Part shown: one piece after another, positions 14,681 to 42,487 of the stretch
How positions within the stretch are numbered: the first letter of the stretch is position 1
Layout of the letters: each line of letters starts with the position of its first letter
Origin: Nymphaea colorata
Taxonomy: Eukaryota; Streptophyta; Magnoliopsida; Nymphaeales; Nymphaeaceae
Reading direction: 5' to 3'
Length of the DNA: 64,000 nt
Assembly (NCBI RefSeq): GCF_008831285.2
Contig: NC_045145.1
Location: forward strand, 3,512,723 to 3,576,722
Program-made: the position numbers and the translations under genes
Notes under the pieces: generated by a model
Databases searched by the model: none
Told to the model about the DNA's origin: nothing
Seen by the model: the letters and a program-made list of their open reading frames with translations, nothing else

Positions 14681-15410
14681 ATGGCAATGCGGTGCATCTT
14701 CATCGCTTTCTTGCTTTTATCTCTTCATCTCCGATCAACTCTAGCGGCCGCTTCTCCGGCTTCCTCCAACAAAATTTCTGCTTTATCACCAGGTATATAC
14801 CTTCTACATGTCCCGCCTCCCTTTTTTAAATCGTTGGTCTTTCTTGGTTGCTCCGCTGCTCTCAATCGAGCAGACTGAACCAACTGCCCTGTCTTGAAGC
14901 CGTAGCTGCTCGATTGCAGTCAGCACTCGTTTTAATAGAATGAGATAACAACACGGGATACTTTTACCACACCTGTTATTCGGCTTGTCCCGCTTATCCC
15001 AACAGAAATTAGGATAAGTTCGGCTGCGGTATTGTGCAGCTTCATATGATACAACACTGGTAGACATATAAAACGAAAAGTCTTGAGAACCGAATTTGCT
15101 GTATGCAGAATTAGTTATTAAGTTGTGCCGCACTTGCTCAGTTTCTGTGCAGGGCATGGATGTCACCACTGGAATAATCCAGGCAAATCCAAGGAAATTG
15201 GCAGGGGGAGGGGGAGGGAGAGGTGGAGGCGGGGGCGGAGGCAGAGGAGGAGGCGGAGGGAGGAGTGGCGGAGGGCGTGTCGTTCCCGGCACCGGAGCAT
15301 ATGGCAAGAGTTCTGCATCTCCAATGAATCACTGCTTGGGGATGACGACGCTCACAGTGTTGGCAACCAGCTTGATGATTATCCTTCCATTTAGGCCTTA
15401 TGATTTGTGA
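14681..15410 (+). CDS. Small secreted Gly-rich peptide, 126 aa (exons 14681-14792, 15142-15410)
   Basis: The family is not recognised. Exon 1 gives a signal peptide (MAMRCIFIAFLLLSLHL, likely cut near LAAASP) and ends in phase 1 at CAG|GTATAT. The acceptor AG at 15140-15141 keeps phase, and the total is 381 nt. Mature sequence: SVQGMDVTTGII and QANPRKL, then a tract of about 30 residues that is mostly Gly with scattered Arg. Next come TGAYGKSS, a Cys, and the hydrophobic segment GMTTLTVLATSLMIIL. Compared with the 39034 paralogue, one base is lost at the end. The old stop is skipped and PFRPYDL is added after the hydrophobic stretch, which would weaken any GPI-anchor signal. A second AG 11 nt downstream (exon from 15153) would switch the frame. 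Function unknown; secretion is inferred. Confidence 0.65.
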
Positions 15411-15829
15411 TATGTACAGGGACCGGTGCCAGTTCATGGTTCCATTGAAATGTTCGCCATCTGAATTTGAAACGTTCTACATGTGGTACAGTACCTTTTA
15501 GTGGAATTCGTCAATTCTTTCGCATATCTTTTCTTCAATCTCCATGATATTGAACATTGGAGATTGTGTGTAAAGGTGGTAGGTGCCGTGGATCACGGCA
15601 ATCCAATCTTTGTGTTGAGTTGTAAGATGATTAATTTTCATAAATATTCTGCCGAAAAAAATGTAGAAAGCGTGTAAGGAAACAATTTGAAAATAACAAG
15701 TTTAATTTCATTTAAATAGTTAAATATTGACATGCATGGGGCGCTCTTGAATCAGCGATGCAACGAAATATATCTATTTCCCAGTCAAATTAAATTATTA
15801 ATTAGCCGAATCAGGTGACTTTTGAGCCT

Positions 15830-16378
15830 TATTAATTTGCTTTTCGCCGTTAACATGCTTGACTTTGCACGTATGTCATCAATGTTTGATAGCCTGCTTG
15901 GGTGTTCAGAAGTGGTGGAGACATGTACTCTGGTGTGGGCAATTGCCCACAGCAACCCCACAAATTACTTTTATTTTTATTTTGCTGTCTTGGAATATCT
16001 TACTAATTATATACATTGGTGCCCCTCTAAGCATGAAACTTTTGAATTAATACCCTTCCAACCAAAATTTCTAACTCCACCACAGTCATAGTTTCGCAGC
16101 CATGGACTAGAGAGTGAGTTGCTTGCACCACAGGGCATCAAATGCACACCCTAAAAAAATAAGATAGAAGATAAGATATTTTGGTTTTTTTTTTAAATAC
16201 CATTTTTAATTTTTTAATTTTTTAATTCTTTTAGTACTATTTTTTGTTCTTATATTTTTTTTTACTGATTAAAGGTATTTTAGTCATTACAAACTCTGGT
16301 ACACCGAGGTGCATATAACCAGATTTTCATGAATGTGCTCTTTCTAACTTCTTGAGGTCTCTCCTAGTTTTGTCTTCA
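15830..16378. other. Intergenic, 3' flank of the 14681 gene
   Basis: No gene is supported. A patch at 15730-15840 recurs inverted at 33090-33200. The rest is AT-rich, with T-runs near 16180-16260. Confidence 0.5.
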
Positions 16379-16386
16379 GCAACATC

Positions 16387-16564
16387 CAGGGGCGGAGCTA
16401 TGGGGGCACATGGGCCTCGGCTCCACTTCAAAATTAAAAAAAAAATTACATGTAAATTTTAAAAAAGTTTAGTTGTCCTATATAAAAATTTTGAAAAAAG
16501 ATATTTCGGCCCATGTCAAAATTTAAAAACTTTAATTAAATTAAAAAAATTTTGCTATGCCTTG
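16387..16564. mobile_element. hAT-type MITE, CAGGGGCGGAGC family, member 1
   Basis: A 178-bp element begins CAGGGGCGGAGC; its right end read inverted starts CAAGGCATAGC. It is flanked by a perfect 8-bp target duplication GCAACATC (16379-16386, 16565-16572). The related sequence near 13030 lacks the insert and reads straight through, so a natural empty site is present in the window. Confidence 0.85.
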
Positions 16565-17392
16565 GCAACATCTTTATCCACATGCAGTCGTTCTCAATTC
16601 AAGTGGTCTATGTGGAACCAACGAAAAATATTTATGGAAATTTTCTGTGGCCTCTACGTTATCAGCTCAATTCCTTCTCAATTATTCATTCTCTCTCCGT
16701 TTTGAAACAACCTGAAGTCAAAATTGCCTCCTTGCTGTCGTTCAAATTAAGGGTGAAGTCAATCGACTTGCAAGCTGGTCCTAGGCTAATCAAAGTCCAA
16801 GTCATTGATGTTGATATATCTCATTTGGATTGAATATAGATTGTTCGTAAACTTCGGATGTCAGAAAAAAATTTAATATGCGATTAAAAAATCAAATCGA
16901 ATTTGGATTTAAGAAATTAAATCTGATCATATTCGGCTTGAACTCAAATACACATAAATATCTGATCATAATCGGATTCGGATTGAATTTAGTTTTACGT
17001 AATCACATATGAGTATTTTACGAGCCAATCTGAGTCTTGTCGCAACCATGCTCAGCTTAAGGTGCTATGTAATCCTCCTCCTTTGGATTGGTCACTCAGT
17101 CACCGTACTACTATATTTGTGCAAGAAAACTTACTTAATTTCTTTGAATTGGTCTTAATTAATATATCCACAATACTTTTGGCTTTACCAGCACAAGCAT
17201 TATCAATCGTTATGTTTCGTAAGTTGATTGTTTCGTCTAATTGAATCCCCAAATTCACGCTTGTCATTCGATTTGAACAAATCTGACCGCACCCATCCAA
17301 CCCAATTTGTAAAAAAATAACCTATTTCAAAAGTCAGACGATCACTAGAGGTCCCATATAATGGATAACAAAGTTTTAGCGCACAAGATCTA

Positions 17393-17760
17393 GGGATGTC
17401 AACAGATCGGATATGCCCTTAGTCTTTTCAGATATTTACATATTCTGATTCAAATACAAATGAAGAAAATTTATATCTGAATTCGTATCAAAAATCTGAT
17501 TGTACAGTTTGAATCCAATTTGAATCTAATTTTTATATTCATTTCAGAATTTGAATTTTGAACTGAATTTTGCTAATTTTCAAAATATAAGAGCATTAGA
17601 TATAGGTTATTGTTTTAAAATAAATCTGATTGGATATTTATGTATATCCGAATCTGGATAACCAACCAGATGTCCTTTTTTTTTAAGTCTCAATCTCAGG
17701 ATATTAAATATTTTTCCATTTCGGTCAGATATCCATTCAAATAGGATATATTAACATCCC
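17393..17760. mobile_element. hAT-type MITE, GGGATGTCAA family
   Basis: A 368-bp AT-rich element has inverted ends GGGATGTCAA and TTAACATCCC. Its flanks AAGATCTA (17385-17392) and AAGATCAT (17761-17768) agree in six of eight bases, as expected of an aged 8-bp target duplication. There is no coding content. Confidence 0.65.
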
Positions 17761-17949
17761 AAGATCATCCCTTATATTCTAAGCCCTCCATTCATCACAT
17801 ATTCTTCTCAAATAAGAAGATGGGGATCGTATGTAAAGGGGAATACATGGTTCATACATATCTGTCTAAAAACCGAATGGTCCAGTCATATCTCTTGTAT
17901 CCTTTTAAGTAGAACACACATGAAATGGATTACAACACAAAGATGGCAT

Positions 17950-18132
17950 CAGGGGCGGAGGCAGGGGGGCCGCCTAGGCCATGGCCTTACCTCAGCTAAT
18001 TGAAAAAAAAAATTACATTAAAAGAATTGAAAATTTTTAGTTGCATAATGTATTTTTTAGATTCGGATTTAGTTTGGTCCTACTTGAATAAGTTTTGGCC
18101 CGCCCCTAAAAAAAATTTCCGCTCCACCCTTG
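17950..18132. mobile_element. hAT-type MITE, CAGGGGCGGAGC family, member 2
   Basis: A 183-bp element has ends CAGGGGCGGAGGC and, inverted, CAAGGGTGGAGCGG. The flanking octamers GATGGCAT (17942-17949) and GATGACAT (18133-18140) differ at one base. It belongs with the elements at 16387 and 31543. Confidence 0.8.
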
Positions 18133-18720
18133 GATGACATCTATTGCTTAATGTAACTGGTGACTCCGATTTGCTGTGATTATGCATGGTTGTAGTTATC
18201 TCTAACAAGCCCTGCCTCCAATGATGCATTACATTTCGTATTATTTTATTGAGGAAATCTCTGGTTGCCTCTGTGTCCAAATCGTTGGAGGCAACTTGGT
18301 GATTTATTATATATAATAAATGTCTGTGTTTTCAATGGAATCGATTACAGTTTCCTTCTAGCAAGAAGTGTGAAGCGTTAGAGAAAGATCCCTGAAAATC
18401 AGGGATCCCAATCACTTGCCCTGCATGCACAGAATGAAGAGAAGGAAGAATAAGATAACCAAATCTGTCAAACCAGAACTTCGGCCACTAGCAGATCTGC
18501 TTGTCAAAGGTTCTTTTCCACTCATGATTTTCTATTGCAACAAAAACCATTAAAGTTTATCATACAAAAACTTTATATCCAACTCACCGGAGACAAATAA
18601 TATAGAAAATTCATATTCAATTTCTTTCTTCGTGCCCAATTCATAAAACCCACGTACGATCAGATCTATCAAAGGCAGATCCGAAAAGGACTAACGATGC
18701 GCAAGCTTCAACCGCCCCAC

Positions 18721-18728
18721 TATATGTA
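18721..18728 (+). promoter_or_regulatory. TATA box of the 18861 gene
   Basis: TATATGTA lies 140 bp before the start codon. A CT-rich leader (18818-18841) follows, the same layout as the 14681 gene. Confidence 0.55.
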
Positions 18729-18860
18729 GACTGCAATTATACGTCGGCAACAAATCCACGCTTAAATCGAAAAATTCTAAGAAATCTCCACAAAGCTATC
18801 ACCTCTCCTTCCCTGCTTCCCTCTCTCTCTCTCCCTCTCTCAAAACACGCACTGCCATCC

Positions 18861-19377
18861 ATGGCAATAACCCGACGCGCCTTCAACACTTTCTTGGTCT
18901 CCTTTCTTCTTCTCCAACTTGCTCTTGCAGCAGCGACACCAGCGTCCTCCCGCAAAATCTCTGCTTTCCCACTTGGTACGCTTCTCATACCCAGCTTGCC
19001 ATCTCAATTTGGTACTTTATTTCCGTTCTCTGTTTGCCTCAATTGAGCTGCAGAATTGTTTGCACAGCGATTAGAAGTTTACTGCATTTATTGTTTCCTG
19101 TATAGAACTCACGAGCTAATTGATTAAATGTGATGGATCAGCATCTTTGCAGGGTTCAGAGAGTGGTGTTACTGGAATTGCAGAAGTAAAACGAAGGAAT
19201 TTAAAAGGTGGTGGTGGTGGTCGTGGTGGTGCCATGGGCATTGGCAGCAGAGGTTTCAGGGGTGGAGGCATTGGTTATCATGCCAGGAGCGCTGCTGTTG
19301 CGCTTGATCACAGTTTGAGGACGACGACGTCTGCAGTCTCAGTGTCCAGCTTGATCATAATTGTCTTTCTGGTGTAG
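18861..19377 (+). CDS. Small secreted Gly-rich peptide, 116 aa (exons 18861-18975, 19142-19377)
   Basis: This is an unrecognised family member with an intact frame (351 nt spliced). Exon 1 encodes a basic start MAITRRAFNTFLVS, a hydrophobic core and LALAAATPASS, a likely signal-peptidase site. It ends in phase 1 at CTTG|GTACGC. Exon 2 is joined at the AG of 19140-19141. It gives SLQGSESGVTGIAEVKRRNL, then KGGGGGRGG, a second Gly/Arg block with GSRGFRGGGIGYH, and a hydrophobic end SAVSVSSLIIIVFLV. The tail could be a GPI-attachment signal or a membrane anchor; this is inference. A second AG 11 nt later would shift the frame into an early stop. Its duplicate at 107-346 is frameshifted, so this copy is the one likely to be functional. 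Confidence 0.65.
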
Positions 19378-20526
19378 GAAGGAACTTGGCCTTTTGATAA
19401 TCTTGTGATGTACCCATGGTTCCATGGAGATGAGATCGCCATCTGAATTTGCGACACTATGATATGGACAATCCGTTTATTAACCTTGCAACAACGACCA
19501 ATCAAGAAGCGCACGTAACAGGCTGGAGCAAATTAAAACATCAGTTATATTACCTCAGGTGAGCATCAGATTTACAAAAAAGTTAAAATTTCGAAGTTCA
19601 GAAAAATGGGTAGATCTTAAACAACATTTTCCACTGCGTGCAGAAAAAAATAATTCCAGCAATCCTGCATGATAAACCTGTGAATTATGATACACTTCAG
19701 TTCAATCTGATAGAACACCCTTTTGCGGATTTACTTTGATATACGAAGAACTTTAGTTGCTGGCCCGGTGTCATGCTTCTGGATAGCAATTATACTGTCC
19801 ATGTGCAAGACTGAATAACGTTCATAATCAATATGCTCCGCCAATCAAATTAACTTCACCTGTCGAGCAAGGTAAGGAAGCAGCAAAGCGAACTCTTGCA
19901 ACAGCAGAAATGGATCAGGAGAAACAAAAGGAAGATAGACAAGTATCCAGCGCTTGAAAACCCATCTGATATACGAACATATGTAGGACTTGTTCTGAGA
20001 AGGAAAAGTACAATTGTAACCATTTGAAAAAAAGTGCTAAGAAAACTACGGAAAATTGAAAGAGTCGCCCAGATCATGGTTTGATCTATTGTGATGAACG
20101 GTTGAAAGGAAACAAGTAATATGCATTTTTATCATGTAGCGTTAGTTTGACGGACCTTATGAGTGAACTGAGTGATTTTTGGTTAGCCAGAATCACCATT
20201 CACTCACTCCAACAGCCCAAGCACAAGTAATTGTTTAATGTCAAGTCACACCACCTCCATAAACATCAACAAATTTTAACTCTTTGGTCACAGCTTACAA
20301 AGAATCCACAAGCTACCATCGCAGCAGTATATATGCAAGCCGGAAAGATGTAATTCTCAAGCAACAAGTGTTTGTGCATGCCACAACCATGGGCTAATGC
20401 AGCTCATAGACGAAGCACAAATCCCACCAATAAAGCTAAAACATAATGACCAAAACAACCAGCAAATAAAGTTAGTGTCAGTAGCTCACCAATAAACGCA
20501 TTTGCAAGTAGCTGCTCATAAATTAA

Positions 20527-20667
20527 CTGCAAATATACTAGCAAACTACCTAATATAGTCACCATCAATGTTCTCTGCAATGCAATCCAGAAGATATAAT
20601 GTAGGTAACTTCTGTTCTTTACAATGCTAATCCAACATAACGTTATGATTGCGGCTAGCAGATGACG
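20527..20667 (-). pseudogene. PCF11-like CID-domain fragment (second copy)
   Basis: The motif KEQKLPTLYLLDCIAENI with flanking in-frame stops is the same as at 1500-1640. Preservation of the same stops in both copies shows that the fragment was already non-coding when the segment duplicated. It sits on the same strand as the CDC20-like remnant about 1.4 kb away. Confidence 0.5.
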
Positions 20668-22079
20668 CAGTTGACATAAGGGCAGCAACACTAGTCAAAA
20701 AACCTGTTAAAGAGTGAAAAGGTTTCTCTCTGAGGCAAAGACCTTTGGACCTTTGGTGATCCTTCAACAACCAGCAAAGAGAGAGGAGGCCTTCAGGGAG
20801 CCTTGTCAAGTCCACAGAAGACAGATTGGTGAAAAGCTCTTCTATTTGGTTTCTTTTTGCAAAGATACTATCAATCGCTCCACATGCACTGAACTGCATT
20901 CTCACCATAGCCAGACCCAACGACCCATATTATGCGGGATTTGGCACTAACACTCCAGCTAAAAATGCTAAATCCCTATTTTCTAGCGTGTATAGTGTCT
21001 GAAAAGAACAATGACGTGCCTACTGGTGAAGTTGTGCCAATTAGAACCATCGGCATCAATTCTTCAACTTTAAATTGTGCAGTAGCTATTTGAGTAGTGT
21101 AGGAAGATACAAAAATTGCCTGATAAGGTAGCATAGGTTAATAAGGAACAGGAATCAACATTCAGTACTAATCCATTTGGATGGGAGTCCGTTCTATTAA
21201 CAAAATAAATGTAAAAATGAGCACTGCACAACTCTCGTACCCAAAAGCTCATCAGCATATCATGAACCTAGCTAAACACCTGCAACGAACTTAAGGATAA
21301 AACAACAATCAACAACCACAAGGAAGGACTCACTTAGGCTGCTTCCTTCCAACAGGAAAAACAAGAGGGCATTTCAGGCTTTCAGCCTAACCAAGTGTCC
21401 TGTCAAGCTGTTGAAAGAGAGGTCCCTACAAAAGTTATGTGGTGAAATAAACTTACTGCAAAACAAGTCTAGAAGGCACAACAAGGCTGCAAAATAAGAT
21501 TGACAGCATGAAACAAATAAACCCAAATGTGCTGAAATAACAGAAACAAAATGTATTGATAGGCAAAATGTACAGAAATAACACAAAGAAAAACTTGACT
21601 ATCTGAGAGAATATATGCTAGACATGTTATAAAAATACCGGATCAACCACATTTAATGTGGCGATTGATATCATGAAACTAAATACCTAAACATTGAATT
21701 AGAGCAGTGAACATCTAAAAGAGATACCTAAGCATGTTACGGAACTACAAAATATGCATTTGAAGTCACTAAGCATGACAATAACAAATAAAAAATTTGG
21801 AAAAGAAGACACACAAAACTAAGTCAGGTGATATAGGATTGCTGCTGATGCAATTCAAATCAACCTGAATCTACTGAATCTGGAACTGGTTTTGATAATG
21901 CAGGCTTCCACAAAAAGAACAGTCCTTTGGCTTCTCTCTTCAGAAATTTTAGCGCCTACTTCAATAGTTATTTCATCAATAAAAAGAGAGGTAACAACAA
22001 AAGCCCAAGAGAAATTACAAACAGGAAACCACATTGCAATACGCAGCCACTGTGTTCTAGCACAGCGGTTTGCTGCCGC

Positions 22080-23330
22080 TGCTCGATCATATGGCAGTAG
22101 GACATCATCTGCACCAATGGCTAATTGCCAGCTTGAAATCGACCAGTTCAGTCCACAAACTTCTTAGTCATGGGCACCATATTTGCCAATTAAAGATTAA
22201 ACTATCTCTTCTACCACTTGCCAGAATATGAATATTGCAAGCAAGTGAGCCAACTCTTGACTGATGACCACGGAGAGTTCTCAACTGCAGAAGACATGAA
22301 AAGGGATACAAGATTTCAGTAAAGAACACAAGCTAGTTACGCCTCCTCCTTCCAAAACTCTTCGTTCACAAAAAGCGAGTCCTGAACTCTAAGCCAAGAA
22401 TTATTCTTATTAACCAACCAACCAAAAGTAAAACTTCATTCGTAAAAAATATCCACGGGAACCAGTTGTTTGAAATCCACATGATAGAAGCAAAAAGGTC
22501 CCTGAATCCTCTACTTTTTTTTTGTGCTGTTTTTTTCTCAATGGAGAACTCAAAATACCCTTGCTTACTAGCAGAACACCACATCGAAAACCCGGAGGAG
22601 GCGTCAAGGCAAGAGGCAAACCTGTTTAGCTGCTGATGCATACCACGATTGAACTGCTTAATTGTTGAGACCAATAGCAAAATGCCGGCATGAGGAGCCC
22701 AACTGGCGCTTATAAATAGCCATTCTGGACATCAACTTAGATGCGGTCCCATCTGATGCATTCCAGATAAATATGGAATGCCCAAAAGCAATTGTTACAA
22801 TGTTGCTGCTGCTCCAGTCGAGAAGATTTAGACAGAAATCATCCAGAAGGTCGGTGCATCGAGAGTTCTTTCTACAGTCTGAGCAACTAAAACGAGGTAG
22901 GCCATCACCACTCCAAAAGGGAAATAATGGAACGAAAAAATGGCCCAAAACTCAATTAACCAAGAATGAACTACGTTAACATATATTGAAAGTTGAAACA
23001 AAGGCTAACCGCATCGAGAATGCGTCTGGGAGGCTTCACGGAGCTAAAATTGCTGTGGAGACCAACACCAGACTTCCTTCAAGAGGGTCTTCACTGATTC
23101 CGAAGATATGCTTCTAAAAGAAAGGATCCTGGTGTGGTTCTTCAGACATGGCTCCGTAAGACGCCTTTGATATGCTTCTTGGGATGGACAACTAATGACC
23201 AATGGCTTCTGCGTCTTTGAATCCTCCATTAAGTACCGAGAAAGTAGAGGTCCAGGGCACCTCTGTTCGGAATGAACCTGCCAGAATGAACACAGCAAAT
23301 CTATTTAGACTTCTCAGTCGAGGTTGTTGC
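22080..23330 (-). pseudogene. CDC20-like WD40 pseudogene, second copy
   Basis: The same CDC20 blocks appear on the minus strand as in the first copy: GRFIPNRGALDLYFL, SQEAYQRRLTEPCLKNHTR, LLDDFCLNLLDWSSSNIV, FAIGLNN and EVCGLNWSISSWQLAIG. It shares the frame break after RFIPNRGA and the lost base at the LDAP motif with 3030-4240. The IWD of the WD repeat has additionally decayed to PYD. It is a non-functional relic of an APC/C activator gene. Confidence 0.7.
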
Positions 23331-23794
23331 ATTTTGGGAGAAAAACAACATTGAGAAAGGAAAATGAAAGGACGAAGACGACAGAGATTCCAGTTTTTCT
23401 CAACATTGCATGGAAATTGGGAAAACGAGACATAACCAAAGGAGAATCCCAGAATCCTGGTTGTACTGAAATTTATGTGAATATTACAGGAAATCAGGAG
23501 AAGCTAGCGTTGAAATCTACGAAGAGAAAAACAAGCACATTCAGGAAAACGGGAAACCTTGTGGAGAATTCCCCAAACAAACCGGAGAAATTCCTTCAGT
23601 TCTGGACCAAACAACGTTATTGGCCCATGAACAAATGTAACTCAAACAAAAGAAGGAAAAGAACCGAAATCACCACGAACGGAGACAATCTGAAAGCACA
23701 AATTAGAACGGGCAGAAGTCAGGCAGATTATCGCACGTATTGCCTCCACGGCGGATTTCTGGGAGCCAGTCGCTGTTCAAGAATTGGGCGCTTA

Positions 23795-24270
23795 GGGCTG
23801 TTTGGTAGGAGGAAAAGAAAATGAAAGAAGGAAAAGGTGTGTTTGGCTGCAAAGAAAAATGGAGGAAAAGAAATTGCAGGAAAAGAAGCAAAAGGTGTGT
23901 TTGGCTGCAAAGAAAAATGGAGGAAAAGAAGCAAAAGGTGTTTGGCTGCAAGGAGAGGAGAAGAAAAAGGAGCGATTGCCTAGTGTAAATCTCTTTCCAT
24001 CTAAATTGAACGGATTGGAAAGAAAATGAAAGAAATGTAAGGGAAAGAGTTTTATATTCTCACACTATTCCTCATTTTCTTTTCCTCCTTTTTAAATCTA
24101 TGTGCTATTTAGTTTTTTTTTTCATTTCATTTCTTTCAATTTCCTTTTTATTCAAACAAACTTTTTAATCAACTCTTTCCATTCATTTCCCTTCCTTTTC
24201 TCTTTTCTTCCCTTCCCTTCTCATTCCCTTTCTTTTCATCTGTTTCCTTTCCCTCCAACCAAACAAAGCC
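23795..24270. mobile_element. PIF/Harbinger MITE present only in the second copy
   Basis: A 476-bp element has ends GGGCTGTTTGGTAGGAGG and, inverted, GGCTTTGTTTGGTTGGAGGG. It is flanked by TTA on both sides (23792-23794, 24271-24273). The first duplication copy reads GCGCTTAGATTCTCGG straight through at 4715-4730, an exact empty site apart from one extra T. The purine-rich unit near GTGTTTGGCTGCAAAGAAAA is repeated two to three times at 23835-23955. Confidence 0.85.
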
Positions 24271-24315
24271 TTATGATTCTCGGACGACGGCCATTCTCTC
24301 ATTAGGATATTGTGG

Positions 24316-24745
24316 TTAAGGGCCTGTGTTTGGTAGGAAGGAATGAGAGGGATTGAGCAATTCCTCTTTTGTTTGGTGGGCTAATTAGAAATTAAAGAAA
24401 AAAAAGAAAAAGAACAAAAGGTGTTTAACTGCAAAGGGAAGGAAGGGAAATGAAATGAAAGTGAGGGATTGTTTAGTGTAAATCTCTTTCCTCCCAAATC
24501 GAATGAATTGTAAAGGAAAAAAAAGAAAAGTAAGTGAAAGAGTTTTTTATTCTCACACTACCCCTCATTTTCTTTTCCTCTTTTTTAAATCCATGTGTTA
24601 TTTAGTCTTTTTTTTCGTTCCATTCATTTCCCTTTCATTTCTATCTAAACAAACCTTTTAATCAATTATTTCTATTCCTTTTCATTCCATTCATTTCCTT
24701 TCCATTTTCATTCCATTCATTTTCCTTCCCTGCCCTTTTCTTCCT
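24316..24745. mobile_element. PIF/Harbinger MITE with a lost right end
   Basis: The left end GGGCCTGTGTTTGGTAGGAAGG and the purine-rich left arm correspond to 4789-5209. The right terminal repeat (CCAACCAAACAGGAC in the first copy) is absent. The arm instead ends in CCCTTTTCTTCC next to the shared sequence at about 24750. It was present before the segmental duplication and trimmed afterwards. Confidence 0.6.
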
Positions 24746-24749
24746 AATA

Positions 24750-28572: not shown

Positions 28573-28633
28573 GGCGTGATCTCTCTGTGTTCTGAAGTTG
28601 CAGAACTAATTCTAACCATCTGATCTTCCCTCA

Positions 28634-31055
28634 ATGGCAATTCGATGCTTCTTCTTCTTCTTCTTCTTTTGCTGGTTACTGCTCATGTTGCATCTTGATT
28701 CGACCCTGGCCTCCGACTCCCCGGCCAACTCACCAGGTATTACATGTTCTACAAACCTTCTGCAAATTTCTGGGTTCCCTTTCATGTTTCGTGTATCTTT
28801 TTAGAAATGAAAAGAGAAAACGAGGAACTCTACCCCAAAGATCACTTGGCAAGTGATGGCATTATCGCTCCTTCCAAATAACAAGTTGTTACTGTTTTAC
28901 GAATTACTCCAAAAATTAAAACCGATTTATAAAACATGGTTTCAATTTTTAAGATAAGATAAATTCATGAGATAGTTTTCTAAATTTATAAAACACTTTA
29001 GTCACAGAAGCAAAGATAGAAATTTTTCATGATTAAAGTTTCTAAATTTTGACTGGGCCAAAATAATTATTTTTCAAAATTTTTATGTATTACAAATGAA
29101 AATTTTTAAAATTTATATGTAATTTTTTTTTTTTAAATTTTGAGGTAGAACAAGGGTGAGGTCGATTAAAGTTTCTAAATTTTGACGGACCAAAATAATT
29201 ATTTTTCAAAATTTTTATGTATGACAAATGAAAATTTTTAAAATTTACATGTAATTTTTTTTTTAAAAAAAGTTTGAGGTAGAACAAGGGCCCATGCGAA
29301 CCCACCTTTGAATCTGTCTCTGCTTAGTATTATATTCGATTTTTAAGGTAAATTCATGAGACACTAAAAGTAATAGTCTTGTGTTGCTTTTGTCAAACGG
29401 GCTTTACAATCCAATATCCCATTGCAAACAATTTTTTTGGTTGGAAAAATAAGTTTTCAGTTTTCTGAAATTTGATATTGTTTTGTTTTTATCAATGTTT
29501 CAGAACGAATCTAAAACTAAAATTTTTATTTTTTGTTTTTATTATTTATTTTTTTCAAATTTTCGAGAATTACTGGGCGTTTTGATTATTTCATATCCTA
29601 ACTGGATCCAGAAACCTGATTTAACTTTAACCAGGATAGATCTAACAACTCATGACCGGATTCAGATCAAACCGTTACGCATCGAATTCCTTGAATCTCA
29701 AGTCAAACAAGACCTACAATATTTATGAATTCCAAGATGCAAGACCTACAATTTCATCAAATAATCCTCACATCTATCAAACGTAAGATTTCATAGTCTT
29801 ATAAAAAAGATCACTTGAGATCCAATATCCAAAGTTGTTAAACCCCAACTTGAGAGAATTTTCTTAATCCAAACTCGCGTTTCCCTCTTACCGTGGGTCC
29901 TCTTTGTCCCAACCTGTCGTGGAATGCTTAGTTTCATGCATGTTTTGACTATAATGTGAGGAGCATGTGAGCTTGTGTAGGCAGTTGCCTACCCAGTCCC
30001 ACAAATTTGATTTATTTGCATAGAAGTTTTTGGCGCTGTATTTACATGTTTTATACATTGGTATTTCCTATCGGGTGTTTGAGAACACCGATCAAGGTAG
30101 AGCCAGATTTTTTTTATGAGGTAGGCGGAATTATAGTTTCATATTTTTGACAACAAAAAACATATAATTTAATTTTTATATAGAATAAATATATTTTCAA
30201 AGATGACTGCCTAGTGGCGCCGAGCCCACTAGGATTGCTTATCAATAGAAAAGGACCCGCTTGTACGGACTTGACAGCTTCCGCGTACAAGGACCCGGGC
30301 GGAGACCAGAACATAGAACACATCAGTCTCGAGAAGGGACCAGGACTCCTCTTGGCCCCCCATCTGTTGGGTCCGTCTTTCAATGTGACTATTTCTTGTA
30401 TATATTTCAAAAAATAAGATAGATTCATGAAACACTTTAAAAGTTGCTTTATGAATATGCGGCAATTTTTTTTAGTAGATACACCAAATGACCCCTTAAT
30501 CATTTGCTTATGTTTATATGACACCCATTAATCATTTTACTGGACTTTCTAAAATTTTTGAACTAGTTCTCTTTAACAAAAAATTTCCTATATAGCTGAT
30601 TTAGTACTACTAAATTTTCATTTTTTTTTATCATTTGTAGAGATGCCAATATATTTGATTTGGTGTGGGTTATCCCACGAAACGGTTTTGAAAAAAGTCA
30701 GATGTGAAAAAAAAATTGATACCCAATCTAGAAAGATTGGGAATACATAAATATAAGATCGGATTTAGATTTCGATTAAGATCACATTTAGTTTTAAATA
30801 GATATTCTATATTCTTGCATTTTCTCAGCCTCAATGGTGGTGGAGGTGGAGAGGAGCACGGTGACACCAGAACCAAGATCAAGAAAACTAAGAGGGGCCG
30901 CAGTGAGGACTGCAGCTGCAGTTGGCATGCGAAGCTCAAGTGCCGGCGGTCGTCGCGCCGGCGTGGCGAATTCAGGCGGCCTTAGCTACTTCAGGATTAA
31001 TATGGGGCCTCCAATCTTAGCGATCAGCTTGCTGGCTTCCCTGATCCTGCTGTAA
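28634..31055 (+). CDS. Small secreted basic/Ala-Gly peptide, 109 aa (exons 28634-28736, 30829-31055)
   Basis: This is a divergent, unrecognised family member with an intact frame (330 nt spliced). Exon 1 starts MAIRC, then seven Phe from a TTC repeat and WLLLMLHLDSTLASDSPANS, a signal peptide. It ends in phase 1 at CCAG|GTATTA. The intron is about 2.1 kb, and the acceptor is TTTCTCAG (30827-30828). Exon 2 keeps the basic motif as STVTPEPRSRKLRG. It replaces the Gly tract with AAVRTAAAVGMRSSSAGGRR and ends in ILAISLLASLILL, alignable with LTVLTASLMVTLLL of the 39034 protein. Another open frame (30704-30985) reads GGGGG but lacks the hydrophobic end; I prefer the frame with conserved ends. Function unknown. 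Confidence 0.55.
28940..29325. repeat. Tandem AT-rich repeat in intron
   Basis: A unit of about 127 bp, running from GTTTCTAAATTTTGAC to GGTAGAACAAGGG, occurs twice in succession (29038-29163 and 29171-29292). Its wording resembles the interior of CAGGGG-type MITEs. It lies within the long intron of the 28634 gene. Confidence 0.6.
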
Positions 31056-31712: not shown

Positions 31713-31897
31713 CATGTTATCTCATTCTATTAAAACGAGTGCTGACTGCAATCGAACAACTACAGATTAAGACAGGGTAATTGGTTCAGTTGGACAAGCC
31801 ATTGTATGCGGCAGTTTGCTCAATTGAGAGCAGCGGAGCAACCAAGAAAGACCAACGATTTAAAAAGGGGAGGTGGGACATGTAGAAGAATATATAC

Positions 31898-32009
31898 CTG
31901 GTGATAAGGCAGAAATTTCGTTGGAAGAAACCGGAGAAGCGGCCGCTGGGGTTGATCGGAGAAGAAGAGATAAAAGCAAGAAATCGATGAAGATGCACCG
32001 CATGGCCAT
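31898..32009 (-). pseudogene. Orphan exon 1 of a secreted-peptide gene
   Basis: The 112-nt exon 1 has an open frame beginning MAMRCIFIDFLLLSLLLRST and a good CCAG|GTATAT donor, the same length and phase as the 14681 and 39034 genes. No exon 2 follows on this strand, because homology stops at about 31395. No TATA box precedes it, because homology stops near 32100 within the CT/AG-rich leader. It is a gene fragment left by inversion. Confidence 0.75.
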
Positions 32010-33225: not shown

Positions 33226-33975
33226 CTTAAGTATTTGTACCACTCATAATTTTCTTTTCATTTTGTAAAACAAGAAATTGACAAAAGTTTTATTTGCAAA
33301 TGTTACTTATTATCCTCCAATTGTTATGTACCAAGATCACTATAGCAATAGGTTTCTTCATTTTGTGAAACAAGAAATTTGACAAGCAAATGTTACTTAT
33401 TATTCTTTAATTGTGATGTACCAAGATCACTATAGCCATAGGAAAAGAAGAGCTAAGAGATGAAAAAATAGTCATAGGAAAAGAGGAGCTAAGAGATGAA
33501 AAAGGAGACATGATTGAAAGTTTTTCAGCGTTGTAGCATTAAAGCTAACATTCTCAATGTCTGTTAACTCTAATGCTACAACGCTTATAAACTGTCTGTC
33601 ATGCTCTGAATGAAACATGTTCATTTCACTCTTTATAAGGGAATGGAGGTTCTTCTCCGTCTTCGATACAGGACTATAAATTCTCACTTTTCTTTCATGT
33701 TACAACACTATTATTCACACCAACATTAGGCCCCACAACTACAATGACAATGACCAATTGCCATGCTGACTAAAGTGTCCTTGAAGCCTAACTTTCCATA
33801 TGCTAGAAAAGACAAATTGCACCAAACCTTCATCAGAAATGACAGCACAAATAACAATTCAAAATGTTAGACATAACACAAGCAAGTTAAACTGAATCAT
33901 GACTCCATTTTTTCTCACTATATCTAGGGACATCAAACTCAAACTGTCCATCAACAGAGATGGATGTCAGTGAAT
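33226..33975. repeat. Direct repeat of about 0.75 kb, first unit
   Basis: This matches 38073-38795 closely, with a unit spacing of about 4.85 kb that brackets the 34537 gene. Inside, the phrase GTACCAAGATCACTATAGC is itself doubled, and a strong hairpin lies at 33528-33584. A 71-codon minus-strand frame (33472-33687) is open in both units, but I do not recognise it. Confidence 0.85.
33528..33584. repeat. Near-perfect 23-bp hairpin, unit 1
   Basis: Arms 33528-33550 (GCGTTGTAGCATTAAAGCTA...) and 33562-33584 are inverted with two mismatches around an 11-nt loop. The copy at 38377-38433 has one mismatch. Confidence 0.8.
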
Positions 33976-34536
33976 ATTTTTTAGTTCAAAAAACTTTTTG
34001 TAGGCACGGTGGACATAACTTTCTCTTTTGCTCATCCTGTTCTTGTCTGCCTGCCGACGTTTCCGAATCTCACGTTGCGAGTGCCGATTCGTCGCACATT
34101 GCACGCCAGATCACGTGAACCTTTTGCCCTGCCTCTTTTTCTTGTGTAGTCTCTCGTTCGAGTTCACATAATTCAGCAAATTTATATTGATGTACCCAAA
34201 CTTTTTTGGATGCAGATCGGATCCCACTGGCTCCGCCTATTTCAGTCGAGTGGGCAATTGCCGTGAAGCTCCCAGACAGCATCTTGTGAATGGAAAACTT
34301 TTGCGATCCAAAGCCGGAAGGTGCCCTTACCTGCCCCTTTTCTGTCGCTGTGTTAATAAGCAATTCAGAATAGAGGACGGTGAGAGCGAGCAGAGAAGCA
34401 AAGGCCGTCGTCCTCACTCGGTTGACATCGGAGGTGGAGCTACAGCTTGAAATAAGGAGGTCGGACGGAGATGAGAGACGGCAGAGATCCCTTCAGACCG
34501 CCAGCAACCGGTGGTGGCGAAAACAAGAAGGCGGTG

Positions 34537-36340
34537 ATGGCCGGGAGAGGCGTCATAATAAGGGCAGCCTTCTTCCTCTTCCTCTTCCTCTTCCTCTTCC
34601 TCTTCTTCTCCCCAAGACCTTGCTTCTGTTTATCAGCAGGGCCTGCTGCTGGCCCTTCATCATTCTCCGCAGGTCTCCCTCTTTCTATCTCTCTTTCTGT
34701 TTTTATTAATACCAAAGTGGATATACAGTGTAGATTATGTGTTCCTTCTTCCTTCCACAGCCTATCGTTTTATTTGGCGTTGTTTTCTTTGATGAAAAGA
34801 AAGTTGCAGATACCAAATTAAGGGTTTGCAGGATATCTTCTGCTGTTGATCGTCTTCTACCTAACGAAAAAATATGCGTTTTCTTTTTTAACGTATAGGT
34901 AAAAGATGAGTCGAGATTCAGGGACTATTATGGGGAAAAGCTACTTTAACTACGCTCATTTGGATGATTTTGAGGATCAAAAATCGTTGGAACTTGGAAG
35001 AAGCTTCTTTTGACACAAAATTGAGTTTACTAACATGTTTTATCATAATCTAATGTCCAAAGAGGCCATTGCTACTGTATTCAATTGTTAACCTTTTGAG
35101 GAAGTTAGGATTCAATAGCTAGAGCTTGAGGTTAAATTGTATCATTTCTATTAAACTACAAGCTTGTTTTTACCGAAGGCATGTAATGATCAGAATAATC
35201 TTGGTTTGCCCCAATATAATGACAAAAAAGAAGTAAAGAAGTTAAAACTCTAATTTTTTTTTTGAAAAATAACCAAATATTCCAACTTTCCTGTTCTTTT
35301 ATTTTGGGTGTATACTCGTTGTTCACTCTCATGGAAAATTAAAAAGTATTTGTTTTTTACCTCATTTGATGCACTACTCGTTGTTCACTCTCATGGAAAA
35401 CTAAAAAGTATTTGTTTTTTACCTTATTTGATGTGACTGAGCTTGTAGTGCATGCTGACTAAAAGATGATAATACATGTTAGTCCCCGTGTCATTAAGTT
35501 CAACTAATTTGATGGGAAAAAGGAATGTTCTATTCACACAACAAATATAGACTGTTCAAAAAAAAAAGGTGGGTTAGCGTATTTTATAACTTTATAAGTC
35601 TTTTTACTTTTTTCAATCTCATTTTTATCTTTTTCAAAACCTTCATTTTTCACTTTATTACCACCCCATGTGCATGTGCAGTAATGAGTTGCTTTTGACA
35701 ACTGGGTTTTTTAGTCATAGGGCACTTGCATTAGTGACACAAATTTGGTGTGAACGCTGCATATAATTTTCAAGTCATAACAATGTAATTTTGAGAGAAT
35801 ATAATGTGATTTTTAATGGGCTGGTGTGGGCAGTAGCCCACCCTAGACAACAAGTATCTCTCTACTTCTCTTTGGATAGTATATACCAAGAGGGATATAA
35901 ATGTATACGGTAATTAATAACCCGGAAGTAAGCAGGAGTCCAAGAGAATTTTTCTAAAGTTTCTATAGCTTATTTGAGGTGATCATTTGCTCATTGAGGA
36001 CGAATATGCAGGTGGAGGAGCAGTTGATCAGATCGGCCAATTAAGGGCACATCATACTGCAATTAAGAGGCAAGTTATTAGTGGAGGTGAACCTGGAGTT
36101 TCAAGAAGAAGTAGTTCCACCAGTGGTAGAGGCACATCGGCCAGGGGCCGTGGCGGTGGACAACGGCCCCATGGTACTTCGCTAGTTCCTGGTCTCTACG
36201 GTGCTGCGGCAGGCGCCACCACCAGCACTGCCGCCAGATCCGGCCAAGACAAATCCCACAAGAGTTCCTCAGTCAGCAATCACTCGGACCTTTTCTTGGC
36301 TGGTTGGGCAGCATTTAGTTGTCTCTTGATGTGGAAGTGA
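34537..36340 (+). CDS. Small secreted Gly/Ser-rich peptide, divergent subfamily, 154 aa (exons 34537-34672, 36012-36340)
   Basis: Unrecognised, but with the family layout and an intact 465-nt frame. The start MAGRGVIIRAAFF is chosen over an upstream in-frame ATG at 34471 because it begins at a signal peptide and aligns with the 40360 relative. The hydrophobic core (FLFLFLFLFLFF) is written by a CTTCCT hexamer microsatellite. Exon 1 ends in phase 1 at CGCAG|GTCTCC. Exon 2 (acceptor ATATGCAG) gives GGGAVDQIGQLRAHHTAIKR, QVISGG, a Ser/Gly/Arg region (SGRGTSARGRGGG), an Ala/Thr stretch, a basic-Ser patch and the end LFLAGWAAFSCLLMWK. The final Lys argues against a classical GPI signal. The intron holds a 55-bp tandem duplication (35320-35432). 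Confidence 0.6.
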
Positions 36341-38072
36341 ATAGTATAATGGAGATGAATACAATCTGTTGGGGAGGCCAAAGTAGTTGAGCAGGTCCAG
36401 GTTTCCGTCTTCATAGTTGTCTATGTTGTAAAAAAAGAAACATATGAGAGAAAGTTATAACACATATGTACATGCCCTTATGCATCATATCATGTATGCC
36501 CTTATGCCACTCAAGCCAATAACATACTAGCAATTGTCCCTCCAAACTCCTTGGGCTCGACGCTACTATAGAGAGGGGCTTATAGAAAAGGAGTTGTTAC
36601 GTGATTGGTTGTCTTAGTTTTTAAGTTTTTAACTAAAACTGCTAAGGAATGGATTGTAATCTGTCGCCACATCGTTACAATTATGTGACAGGTAGATAGA
36701 TGCTGCATCATTGGAGCATTCAATCCCTAGCCCTGTAGCTGGTTATGCCACCCAAAAAACAAAGAGTTTGGTACATAAAAAGACCTCATATGAACTACAA
36801 GACTGTTCCTGATTTTATTTTCATACAGAAGCCCAACCACAAAGAGTTATTAATTGATCACCCACACAATTGCTATGGATCCAAGTTATATTTTTCATAC
36901 TCAATCTCTCACTATTGCCAAATAGACTCTTAGTTCTATAAAAATGTGTGTGTTTTTTTTCAGATTTCTACATCATTAACGTTGCCACATTCTAAATATG
37001 AAGCTGCCGAAAGAAAATCGCTATAGAAGTAAATGCCGTTGATAAGGCTGGATATTATAGTCTTGTAATGTTTTTTTTTTTTTTGGGTTAGGAGACTCAA
37101 AACTTAACCGGGATTATTTTTTTCCATACCTATCAAGCACTCGAAAAAAATTCTAGAAATATTTTTACTGATACATGGATTTTTACTGATATGGGTGGAG
37201 AAAAAAAAAAACCTGCCTCTCACCTTATTGTAGAAATATTTTTACTGATACATGGATTTTTTTTTTCTATGGAGATCAAATGCATTGATTCTGTTGGGGC
37301 ATCTGGCAATAGAAACATCAACCCACTAATGCACTATTCTATAAATTTACCTTTATGTTCGGGATAAATTGATGAAAAACTAAGTTAAATTCTTATTGTC
37401 AAACACCTCCTATGACTATTTAATTTTAATACTCATAGAACCTTGCTTTTGATTTTGACAAAATTATATTGACTTGTTGGTTTTTGATATTTTCTTTTCT
37501 GGTGCAAATCTATTGGGAGGTAGAAGTCCTTTCCCTTTTTAATTATTACCAAAACATAGGGGGAGGTGCAAGGAAACCGATAATTTAACTTCATTTATGC
37601 AAATAAGTTTTACCTTTTAGTAGTTTCTAAAAATAAAACACCCATATTCATGAAACATAAGAATATTCACACAACTCACAAACTCACAAGGGAGGAGGCA
37701 TATTTCATGCCTTTCCCTGTTAACCTGAGTATATTATATCCTCCTTTGCAAAAGTATGTTTTCTATATGTATAAAAAGAAGGTTTGAGCATGTTTTCGTG
37801 GTACACTAAAAAATTGGGTTTTTTTTTTCCCTAGTTCATGTTCTACTCCTTCTGTTCGGCAAGTTAGAAGAAAAATATTCTCTTCAAACCTTTTCATACA
37901 AATTTATAGGAACTGATTGATCTTTATGTGATTAATTGACATTGAATACCTTTCCCCAAATTTACCACACTTTATAATATAGATTCCTAATTACCAAGAA
38001 AAACGGTTTTCTTTCTAAAATTTGGTTTTAAATTATTGATTGAGGTACTGTTCAACAACATTCAATTCTTCT
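36341..38072. other. Intergenic, no gene seen
   Basis: This is AT-rich sequence with short internal repeats, for example TAGAAATATTTTTACTGATA at 37150 and 37232. Neither strand shows a credible coding region. Confidence 0.5.
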
Positions 38073-38795
38073 TTTAAGTATTTGTACCACTCTTAATTTT
38101 CTTTTCATTTTGTAAAACATGAAATCTGACAAAAGTTTTTATTTGCAAATGTTACTTATTATCCTCCAATTGTTATGTACCAAGATCACTATAGCAATAG
38201 GTTTCTTCATTTTGTGAAACAAGAAATTTGACAAGCAAATGTTACTTATTATTCTTTAATTGTGATGTACCAAGATCACTATAGCCATAGGAAAAGAGGA
38301 GCTAAGAGATGAAAAAATAGTCATAGGAAAAGAGGAGCTAAGAGATGAAAAAGGAGACATGATTGAAAGTTTTTCAGCGTTGTAGCATTAGAGCTAACAT
38401 TCTCAATGTCTGTTAACTCTAATGCTACAACGCTTATAAACTGTATGTCATGCTCTTGATGAAACATGTTCATTCCACTCTTTATAAGGGAATGAAGGTT
38501 CTTCTCTATCTTCGATACAGGACTATAATTTCTCACTTTTCTTTCATGTTACAACACTATTATTTACACGAGCATTAGGCCCCACAACTACAATGACAAT
38601 GACCAATTGCCATGCTGACTAAAGTGTCCTTGAAGCCTAACTTTCCATATGCTAGAAAAGACAAATTGCACCAAACCTTCAATGTGAAATAAAAAATGAC
38701 AGTACAATTGAAAATTCAAAATGTTAGACATAACAAAAGCAAGTTAAACTGAATCGTGACTCTTGTCCATCAAAAGAGATGGATGTCAGGTAAAT
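38073..38795. repeat. Direct repeat of about 0.75 kb, second unit
   Basis: This is the partner of 33226-33975. It ends about 240 bp before the 3' end of the minus-strand gene at 39034. It carries the hairpin at 38377-38433 and the second copy of the 71-codon frame (38321-38536, minus). Confidence 0.85.
38377..38433. repeat. Near-perfect 23-bp hairpin, unit 2
   Basis: Arms 38377-38399 and 38411-38433 pair with one mismatch across an 11-nt loop (TTCTCAATGTC). The arm sequence is shared with 33528-33584, where it has drifted by one further base. Confidence 0.8.
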
Positions 38796-39033
38796 ATTTT
38801 TTTTTGTTTCCTGCAAGGAGGAAGTGGGAGACAGGTTCCTCCCGCCCCCTCTCACCAACATATATGATCAAAGAAATGTGACCATGAATCAAAAGAATTG
38901 ATGAATTTCACTAAAGAGTACTGTACCATCTGTGGAACGTTTCAAATTCAGTTGAAGAGGATTTCAAATGGAACCAGACGAACTGCCATCGGCCAGCCCC
39001 TATACATCACAGGTCAGAAGGCGTAAATGCTTC

Positions 39034-39706
39034 CTATAGGAGAAGGGTAACCATCAAGCTGGCTGTCAACACCGTGAGCGTCGTCATCCCCAAGCAGTTT
39101 CTTCTTTGAGCCGCAGAACTATTGCCATAAGCTCCGGTGCGGCGAAAGAATCCACGCCGTCCAATACTCCTCCCTCTGCCTCCACCTCTCCCTCCACCCC
39201 CTTTCAATTTCCTTGGCTTTGCCTGCGCTATTCCAGTGGCGGTGTCCCTGCCCTGCACAGAAACTGAGCGAGCGCTGCACAACTTAATTACTGGTTCTGT
39301 ACACTGCAAATCGAACTCGTTTCGCATGACTTTTCATTCTATCTGCCAGTGCAGTGTTATCCTATGAAGCTGCACAATACCGCATACTGAACTTATCCTA
39401 CTTTCTGTTGGAATAAGCGGGATAATACAAGAAATTGAAATTATAAAAATATCCCGCCTTTCTCATTGTATTGAAACCAGTGCTGACTGCAATCGAACAG
39501 CCTATGGCTTCAAGACAGAGTGGTCAGTGCAAAACCAAGAAAGACCAAAGATTTGAAAAGGGGAGGCGGGCGGGACAATATGGTAGATGTATACCTGGGG
39601 ATAAAGGAGAAATTTTGTTGGAGGAAGACGGAGAAGCGGCTGCTAGAGTTGATAGGAGATGAAGAGATAAAAGCAAGAAAGCGGTGAAGATGCACCGAAT
39701 CGCCAT
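39034..39706 (-). CDS. Small secreted Gly-rich peptide, 113 aa (exons 39706-39595, 39263-39034)
   Basis: Closest relative of the 14681 gene, on the opposite strand; intact at 342 nt. The start MAIRCIFTAFLLLSLHL matches the paralogues; an ATG three codons upstream (39715) is also in frame. Exon 1 (112 nt) ends in phase 1 at CCCCAG|GTATAC. Exon 2 joins at the AG of 39265-39264 and reads SVQGRDTATGIAQAKPRKL, then KGGGGRGGGRGRS, GRRGFFRRTGAYGNSS, one Cys, and GMTTLTVLTASLMVTLLL as the final residues. Signal peptide plus a hydrophobic end with no polar residues after it fits a GPI-anchored wall or membrane peptide; this is inference. The promoter is shared with the 14681 gene. Confidence 0.65.
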
Positions 39707-39753
39707 GGTAGCCATGCAAGCGCGGAGAGACCTTCATTGTTCTGCCTTCCTCC

Positions 39754-39761
39754 TTTATATA
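39754..39761 (-). promoter_or_regulatory. TATA box of the 39034 gene
   Basis: On the minus strand TATATAAA sits about 48 bp before the start codon, in the same GGATATATAAAGGAGG context as at 14548-14563. The CT-rich leader of the 14681 gene is missing here. Confidence 0.65.
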
Positions 39762-40359
39762 TCCAGAGCATCGATGCCAACTCGTACTGATGAGCCTTTC
39801 TTTGTTGGTACTCGGCAGTTTCGCGTCGCTTGTGTTCTGAAGAGAGCAGCCAAAAAAGTTGTGAGCGCACGGGCGTATGGTCCATGTGATCAACTCTTCT
39901 TTCTGAAGATTGCCAGACTTTAATTATATATATATACCATGCAGAGCATATTCAAACTGTGAGATACCAAAATGTAGTGGGCTAAGAATATGGTGCAGGA
40001 AGTTTTCGATCCAACGGAAAGGTCGGAAGTGCCGCGTCCTTCTCTTTTTGCCTTTTTCTTTTTGCCTAACAAGCAATTTAGAACATCGAGCCGATCACGT
40101 CTCGCGCTCATGCATGCGAGGCAGCTTCTATGTGGCTTGCTTTCTTCTCTCTATGTGGCTTGCTTTCTTGTCTCTGTGGATTGAAAATTTGAAATATATA
40201 GAGGCGCAGGAGAGAGCAAATCAATTAAGAACTAGCAGAGGCTATCGTGTTCACTCAGAAGCTGCAACTTGAGAAGAGGGCAGCGGAGATTAATCAAGAG
40301 GGCACAGGTCCGTTCAGTCCTCCAGCAACCAGGGATGGCAACAAAACAAGACGACGGTG

Positions 40360-40485
40360 ATGATCATCGCCAGCAAAAGAGTGATCGCAATACGGGCAGC
40401 CTTCATCCTCTTACTCTTTTTCTCCTCAAATCCTTACTTCTGCTTATCAGCACGGCCTGTTTCTGGCCCTATCTTTTTCTTCTGG

Positions 40486-40516
<31 letters not shown>

Positions 40517-41440
40517 CCTCCTCCGGCTGCACAGGGGCGGGCGACCTCCTCCGGCTGTACAGGGGCGACCTCCACCGGCTCCCCCGCTCCTCCGGCTCCC
40601 TCTCCGCTCCTCCGGCCTCCTCTGCTCCTCCGGCTCTCTCTCGCTCGGGCGGGCGGTCTCCTCCCGTCAGGCGGTCTCTCTGGGCTCGGGCAGGCGACCT
40701 CCTCCGGCTGTACAGGGGCGACCTCCACCGGCTCTCTCTCGCTCGGGCGGGCGGTCTCCTCCCGATAGGCGGTCTCCTCCGGCCTCCTCCGCTCCTCCGG
40801 CTCTCTCTTGCTCGAGGGGGCGGTCTCCTCCCGTCAGGCGGTCTCTCTGGGCTCGGGCGGGCGACCTCCTCCGGCTGTACAGGGGCGAACTACTCCGGCT
40901 CTCTCTCGCTCGGGAGGGCGGTCTTCCTTTTTACTTCTTGTCCTTTTTTACACCGACTGTACAGGGTCCACCTTTTTTACTTTTTGTCCTTTTTCTCTAG
41001 TGTCCTTGCTCCTACCTAGCTTTTCCTTGTTGGTAGTCTTCCAAACCCACTATCCATTCGTTTTCTTTTTCTCTTTTGTCATTTCCCCCATCTGACTGCT
41101 TCCTGGGATTATGTCTGGAGGTTGAGACTCATTTCAGCTTGGTGGTGCATTTGAGAGGAGCGCAACAACAGAGTCTTTAAGGACACATTCTCTTCGCCAG
41201 ATTCTATGGCTCGTCTCATGTAAGGGGATGTCCAGTTCGCCATTCGGATGAAGCGTCGCTGTCCATCTACGGCTGGGTGACTGTGCCGCTCCATCTTTCA
41301 TCTCTCTCTTGCTTTTCTGTGCATTGTATTGTATATTTTCTCATTCCTCCTTCTGTTTTTGCGGTTTGTTTTTACGGATTGTTTTTATACCTAGGGGACC
41401 CCTTGTCCTCAAATTTTGTTATATATTCACATTTTATCGG

Positions 41441-41474
<34 letters not shown>

Positions 41475-42487
41475 TTCTTCTACCAAATATCAAATAGATG
41501 ATTTATGATGCTCGAAGGTTGAAATACAGTGTACTTTATGCCCTTCTTCTTCCTTCCTTGCCCATTTGTTTTATTTGGTCTTGTTTTTTTCAAAGTTTTT
41601 TGCAGGGAATAATTTGTTCTTTTGTGTACGGCAACTTCTTACTTTTGTAAGTAATGGCCTCAAGAAAAATAGCCTTATAGCAATGGAAAGCATATATGCC
41701 CAATCTAACTCTTCCATCGGTTATCTTCTTTGTCTTCTCTACGGTTTTCCATCATCTTGTGCAAGAAAATAAATTCTTATCATCCTCCAAACATCTTGCA
41801 CACACACATATATATATACCTTCAATATTATTTAATTATCATTGTGCTATGTCCAAAGAGGCCATTATTCTATCTCTCTAAACACGCTTTTTACCGGTCG
41901 AGAAGTGTTTGTTCATTGATCTACAGCAAGAACAAAAAGCACCAATTAATTTGTATCTCATTTGATCAGACCGGGTTTCTAATAGGAGAAGATAATACAG
42001 TTCCCTGTGTCTTGAAATTCAGCACTGATATATAACCAAAAAAAAAAAAGAAAGGATGGCATATATCAAAAGATGCCTTAAGTTTAGGATATACAATAAT
42101 CCAAACGTAAAAAAAGACAATTTACATGCACCACTTTATTTGATATGATTGCTGATGTAATCATTTAAGATGAATATGCAGGTGAAGGAGCAGTTGGGAC
42201 CGGCCAAGTAATAGCAAGTCATACTTCCATTAGAAGAGAAGTTATTGTCAGGAGCAAAGCACGTCGTAACAGGCGGTGCTGCCAGGGGCGGAGGCAGAGC
42301 AGCCGGGGTCAGCGGGGGTGAGGAAGAGCTCCACCGTACTTCGCTAGTTCCTGTTATGTATATTGGTGCCGCCGCGGCCGGTGCCGCCATGGCCGGTGCT
42401 GCCGCCAGATCTAACGAAGCCAAACTCCATATGAGCTCTTCAGGCAACAACTACTGCCATGGTGCGGACCTTCTCTTGACAAGCTAG
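40360..42487 (+). pseudogene. Decayed relative of the 34537 peptide gene
   Basis: Exon 1 (40360-40484) gives MIIASKRVIAIRAAFILLLF with a signal-peptide look, and aligns with the 34537 gene. Exon 2 (from 42182, acceptor ATATGCAG) aligns from its first codons (GEGAVGTGQVIASHTSIRRE). Two frame changes spoil it. Exon 1 is two bases shorter at the donor, so the spliced join reads TGG then a stop. Exon 2 gains one base near 42247, after which the old frame continues (GAKHVVTGGAARGGGRAAG) to a stop at 42487. Lost hydrophobic tail codons also argue for decay. The 1.7-kb intron contains a G/C-rich minisatellite. Alternative splicing could rescue a product; I think it unlikely. Confidence 0.6.
40485..40930. 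repeat. G/C-rich CT minisatellite in the intron
   Basis: After a (CT)n run (40484-40513), a complex unit of about 160 bp recurs, anchored by CGACCTCCTCCGGCTGTACA at about 40539, 40698 and 40862. It mixes CTCTCTCTCGCTCGGGCGGG and CCGTCAGGCGGTCTCTCTGG. Base composition is unlike anything else nearby. The long frames through it (for example 40269-41000) are repeat artefacts. Confidence 0.85.

Follow-up and report, generated by a model that had tools for sequence, protein, structure and literature searches.

We find that nine loci lying close together in Nymphaea colorata DNA are not members of one family, and that those forming the core of the cluster make up a real protein-coding family with a two-exon plan. 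This is based on a 64,000-nt stretch (C8:3512723-3576722 on NC_045145.1; hereafter, the window), from which the first-pass annotation had joined all nine loci into a single tandem family of secreted, glycine-rich peptides. Three-frame reading and splice-site location, by which we built the gene models, confirm its count of five intact models and four broken loci; its span (14681..42487) holds seven of the nine and misses A7 and A8 (Table 1). Also as claimed, all five intact models splice to lengths divisible by three, have introns of 166-2092 bp (M1 349, M2 166, M3 2092, M5 1339 and M6 331 bp) and end exon 1 in phase 1 (5/5), divisibility being weak evidence because the models were picked by frame. 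The proposed plan of a signal-peptide exon followed, after a phase-1 intron, by a second exon that bears TGI...RxL, a Gly/Arg tract and a hydrophobic C-terminus holds for the core and fails for M3 exon 2 and for M5/M7. Within the window, the core thus consists of M1, M2 and M6 plus the wrecks A7, A8 and M4.

What carries the coding argument is the manner in which core copies differ from each other. Among four intact copies (A1, M1, M6, C7A; six pairs, nucleotide-only alignments, M2 not in the set) all 10 pairwise gaps within exon 2 have lengths divisible by three and exon 1 is gap-free, compared with 3/39 gaps in the intron, 6/25 upstream and 6/19 downstream, albeit these pairwise gaps are not independent because pairs share events. 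Pairs with M2, aligned under another setting, likewise have gaps in multiples of three except for two of five in M2-A1 (8 and 4, listed adjacent). M2 and M6 differ by a dS of 1.19 and a dN of 0.395, a ratio of nonsynonymous to synonymous change (dN/dS) of 0.33, and the ratio of synonymous to nonsynonymous proportions (ps/pn) for this pair, 2.07, is reached by none of 150 neutral simulations run with kappa 3 (mean 1.22, maximum 1.79). Their mismatches at codon positions 1, 2 and 3 number 46, 37 and 61 (of 114 each; nucleotide-only alignment) and position 3 is highest in all four M2 pairs so aligned (vs M6, M1, C7A, A1). A blastn comparison of the M2 gene with M6 matches one exon 1 stretch and one exon 2 stretch and nothing else; with M1 it matches exon 1 together with the adjoining upstream edge and, past exon 2, 37 bases of downstream sequence, exon 2 itself not being matched. 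Purifying selection between these old branches bears out the frame in which the core had been modelled.

Using tblastn over C8:3450001-3586600 and C7:16107001-16127000 we count 13 core copies, 12 on C8 over about 91 kb (A1-A8, M1, M2, M4, M6) and one on C7 (C7A), of which seven are intact (A1, A3, A4, M1, M2, M6, C7A). The remaining copies are broken: A2 has lost its donor and has an interrupted exon 2, A5 has a stop inside exon 2, A6 is frameshifted, and A7, A8 and M4 are described in Table 1. Local expansion and high turnover, as suggested earlier from the window, are both supported. The GT donor is kept in 12 of 13 loci with this site aligned and AG at the homologous place in 12 of 13 with exon 2 aligned, M3 being included in both counts. 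Genome-wide protein searches with M6, M5, M3 and M2 place all matches listed at E < 0.1 on C8 3461-3609 kb or C7 16114-16122 kb; since such searches score best candidates only, distant members may be missed. An orphan core-type exon 1 with GT donor lies outside the window at C8:3608647-3608757 (minus strand), with no exon 2 recognised within 2.6 kb downstream. Over kilobases, parts of the C7 block share up to 94% identity with C8 DNA, also in intergenic sequence, and we therefore read this block as a probable recent inter-chromosomal duplicate. Two near-identical blocks about 11.5 kb apart, again outside the window (C8:3475304-3475973 and C8:3486843-3487512), carry A3/A4, each also holding an M5-type and an M3-type copy, and represent either a recent segmental or an assembly duplication.

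M3 (28634-31055) appears to be a chimera, in which a core promoter and signal-peptide exon have been joined to an unrelated exon. The DNA around its exon 1 matches the A8 region and homology to other M3-type exon-2 copies starts 20 bases before M3 exon 2, which together point to a fusion inside the phase-1 intron. Assigning exon 2 to the core was rejected (hhalign probability 0.9%). This exon has three sister copies, one on C7 and two on C8 (at 3481 and 3493 kb). In the C7 and 3481-kb copies, which are the two we examined, CTCAC takes the place of the CTCAG acceptor of M3, and scanning hydropathy upstream of both turned up no exon 1 candidate that has a phase-1 donor. For exon 2, dN/dS is 0.72 and 1.21 against the C7 and C8 sisters and 1.09 between the two sisters.

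M5 and its broken relative M7 form a separate group B. A single family of nine was rejected here, M5 matching the core profile over 16 signal-region columns only (probability 38%, E 0.00034), and so was M5 exon 2 as a core exon 2 (hhalign probability 0.2%). There are three M5 copies on C8 with identical exon proteins, the C7 relative is frameshifted and all three M7-type copies are disrupted. Mismatches between M5 and M7 fall on codon positions 1 to 3 as 10, 7 and 8 (about 27 columns each), without third-position excess, and in-frame gaps in exon 1 of M5/M7 prove nothing because they lie within a TTCCTC repeat. Group B shows no coding constraint and matches the core in the signal region only. 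At 40269-41000, inside the M7 intron, low-complexity CTCCTCCGGCT-type repeats give a 243-codon open frame without gene evidence.

Core proteins follow a layout of signal-like N-terminus, conserved exon-1 end, xSxQ...TGI......RxL, Gly/Arg tract, GAYG-like and small residues, and hydrophobic tail. In the five proteins compared (M1, M2, M6, A1, C7A) an N-terminal hydrophobic stretch is present throughout (5/5; by a hydropathy measure, not SignalP) and a hydrophobic tail closes the protein in M2, M6, A1 and C7A. Joint hydrophobicity of both ends was matched in 0, 0, 0, 2 and 0 of 2000 shuffles (in the above order), and the paired hydrophobic termini are not explained by composition alone. The core domain is 15-31% glycine, has an isoelectric point (pI) of 11.3-12.0 and contains two Cys at most; charged residues number 8-15 Lys plus Arg vs 1-3 Asp plus Glu. 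By its look, the core may be disordered. Of the TGI-KL motif put forward in the first-pass annotation a few fixed residues survive, TGI and RxL (RKL or RNL) being invariant in 5/5 aligned core exon 2s. The motif is not a conserved block, as the VSVQ...RKL stretch (44% identity, M2 vs others) is no better conserved than the whole signal peptide (48%); leaving out the Gly tract, conservation is highest at the exon-1 end AxPASSxKIS.. (55%).

We give about an even chance to a reading in which the core encodes small cell-surface Gly/Arg-rich preproproteins that are secreted, putatively anchored by glycosylphosphatidylinositol (GPI), possibly cut at RxL, and structural or receptor-modulating in role. 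The signal peptide would be cut near ...LAA|A, secretion of the predicted precursors being supported by composition, and the C-terminal signal would be swapped for a GPI anchor near small residues (SSA/SAA), a plausible prediction for the core. A subtilase of SBT6.1/SBT3.5 type may cut the invariant RxL; this we infer from RxxL/RxLx, the sites of SBT6.1 and SBT3.5, which are cut in PROSCOOP12 (TGRRLM|GSGASG) and RALF23 (INRRIL|ATRRY) (PMC13082318). Such a cut would part an N-terminal piece (SPASSNKIS...TGI..) from the basic Gly/Arg-rich domain (pI above 11), which would stay at plasma membrane and wall; there this glycine-rich protein may be structural or may modulate receptors, plausibly in stress or defence. 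Local duplication, gene death and exon shuffling, all frequent, would keep copy number in flux.

The surface role is drawn by analogy with GRP-3/WAK1 and with Arabidopsis Gly-rich GPI-anchored proteins and may be envisaged accordingly loosely. Compared by description only, the core shares the glycine-rich class of the latter, with signal-like N-terminus, Gly tract and GPI-like tail; a list of GPI-anchored proteins of Arabidopsis gives At1g07135, At3g04640 and At4g15460 as glycine-rich (PMC6726743), while At3g04640 is recorded with 8.1-fold induction by B. cinerea (PMC4416716) and At1g07135 with a decrease under IDL7 peptide (PMC5853212). AtGRP-3, an apoplastic WAK1 partner, is likewise small, secreted and glycine-rich, at the wall and partly at the plasma membrane (PMC4783359), but differs in its GGxxxGG motif and in a C-terminal domain rich in Cys, where the core has two Cys at most and a hydrophobic tail. 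The core proteins resemble types of cell-surface protein already known from plants. The first-pass annotation had matched them to no family of plant signalling or defence peptides, and we find no Pfam model at cut-off for the five window models. M2 also hit DUF1180 (Pfam, E 0.0098, below cut-off), which we rejected as a match of signal and tail composition. NCBIfam, a prokaryote library, had no match for M6 or M2, and a solved-structure profile search gave four matches, all at E 0.13 or worse. In titles and abstract starts of Nymphaea literature on glycine-rich, GPI and secreted-peptide themes we found no description of the core family.

Several observations weigh against the reading we prefer. 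A motif as short as RxL arises easily. M1 ends in LPFRPYDL, where other core copies end in LLL or similar, and these further residues past the hydrophobic tail may spoil a GPI signal. PF07172 (Pfam GRP) scores 12.4 bits with M1 and 13.2 bits with M2 (E 0.15-0.26), short of its 30-bit cut-off, and is not listed for M6, M3 or M5. Six of 13 core copies are broken, and recent core pairs have dN/dS of 0.57-1.21 (leaving aside A3-A4 and M6-A4, which have one and two differences), so that constraint is weak or turnover dominates; young core copies are barely constrained. The last two points also favour a scenario, unlikely to our minds yet the best placed of the alternatives, in which segmental duplication amplified an old secreted gene and most of the resulting copies are relaxed or dying, the intact ones being so just on account of their youth. 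The single, synonymous difference between A3 and A4 fits it, too, as does the lack of constraint on exon 2 of M3 and M5. It is opposed by the strong constraint between M2 and the rest and by exon-2 gaps that stay in frame even among recent copies.

Rather improbable, in our estimate, is that the core proteins are phytocytokine-type precursors akin to PROSCOOPs, from which an RxL cut would free a short mature peptide for perception by a receptor kinase. PROSCOOPs, too, are small secreted precursors with signal peptide, in tandem clusters and with two or three exons, many carrying RxLx/RxxL (PMC6382344, PMC13082318). The invariance of TGI and RxL in the core would suit such a cut. What follows RxL, however, is no fixed short peptide but a Gly/Arg tract of changing length and a hydrophobic C-terminal tail. 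The C-terminus of PROSCOOPs carries a short conserved motif, SxS. By eye, the core has this triplet after RxL in three of five proteins only (M1, C7A, M2), at differing places, and not in M6 or A1. A role as antimicrobials, with cationic Gly/Arg-rich peptides set free in the apoplast, would fit the high pI, the excess of basic residues, the clustering and the turnover, but is less probable again given so few Cys, no Pfam family at cut-off for the five window models and a probable, predicted membrane-anchor signal. Going beyond the GPI-anchored surface proteins we prefer, one may envisage that the RxL-freed N-terminal piece (SPASSNKIS...TGI..RxL) is a mobile ligand, the Gly/Arg domain a GPI-anchored wall binder, and that shuffling of the promoter-plus-signal-peptide exon makes new versions, amounting to a new family of surface-tethered signals in an early-branching flowering plant; this is a long shot.

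Table 1. Exons and broken copies of the nine loci, by position in the window
Feature	Position	Strand	Description
M1 exon 1	14681..14792	+	Signal peptide plus AASPASSNKISALSP; donor G|GTATAT, phase 1
M1 exon 2	15142..15410	+	VSVQGMDVTTGIIQANPRKL, Gly/Arg tract, hydrophobic C-terminus; acceptor CTCAG
M2 exon 1	18861..18975	+	Most divergent intact core member
M2 exon 2	19142..19377	+	ASLQGSESGVTGIAEVKRRNL, Gly tract, hydrophobic tail
M6 exon 1	39595..39706	-	Another in-frame ATG at 39715
M6 exon 2	39034..39263	-	VSVQGRDTATGIAQAKPRKL, Gly/Arg tract, tail end LLL
A7 (broken)	106..343	+	M2-like exon 2, frameshift; exon 1 outside window at C8:3512542-3512655
A8 (broken)	9833..10084	+	Core copy remains; acceptor AG lost, frameshift, no tail
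M4 (broken)	31898..32009	-	Core exon 1 with GT donor; exon 2 not found
M3 exon 1	28634..28736	+	Core-type exon 1, A8-like DNA around
M3 exon 2	30829..31055	+	Of other lineage than core; no constraint seen
M5 exon 1	34537..34672	+	Separate group B; alternative start 34471
M5 exon 2	36012..36340	+	Group B; no detectable similarity to core exon 2
M7 (broken)	40360..42487, ends approximate	+	Group B relative of M5; exon 2 frameshifted

Elsewhere in the window, direct repeats at 33283-33582 and 38132-38431 (300 nt, 99% identical) are part of a longer duplicated stretch and perhaps the remnant of a transposable element. A 664-codon open reading frame (ORF) at 56732-58726 has a plant calmodulin-binding domain (PF07839, E 7.3e-31), and an ORF on the minus strand at 2861-3259, possibly a gene fragment, partially matches CDC20/Fizzy WD40 (E 3.3e-07, below cut-off).

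Specialists may be moderately surprised, plants being already known to have both Gly-rich GPI-anchored proteins and clusters of secreted peptides. If expressed, the core would be a group of small surface proteins that is expanding locally and has a possible protease site, in a plant whose lineage probably split off near the base of the flowering plants, and would offer a testable entry into the origin of secreted peptide families. M3 also seems to provide a case of a promoter-plus-signal-peptide exon that has gained a new partner exon by way of a phase-1 intron.

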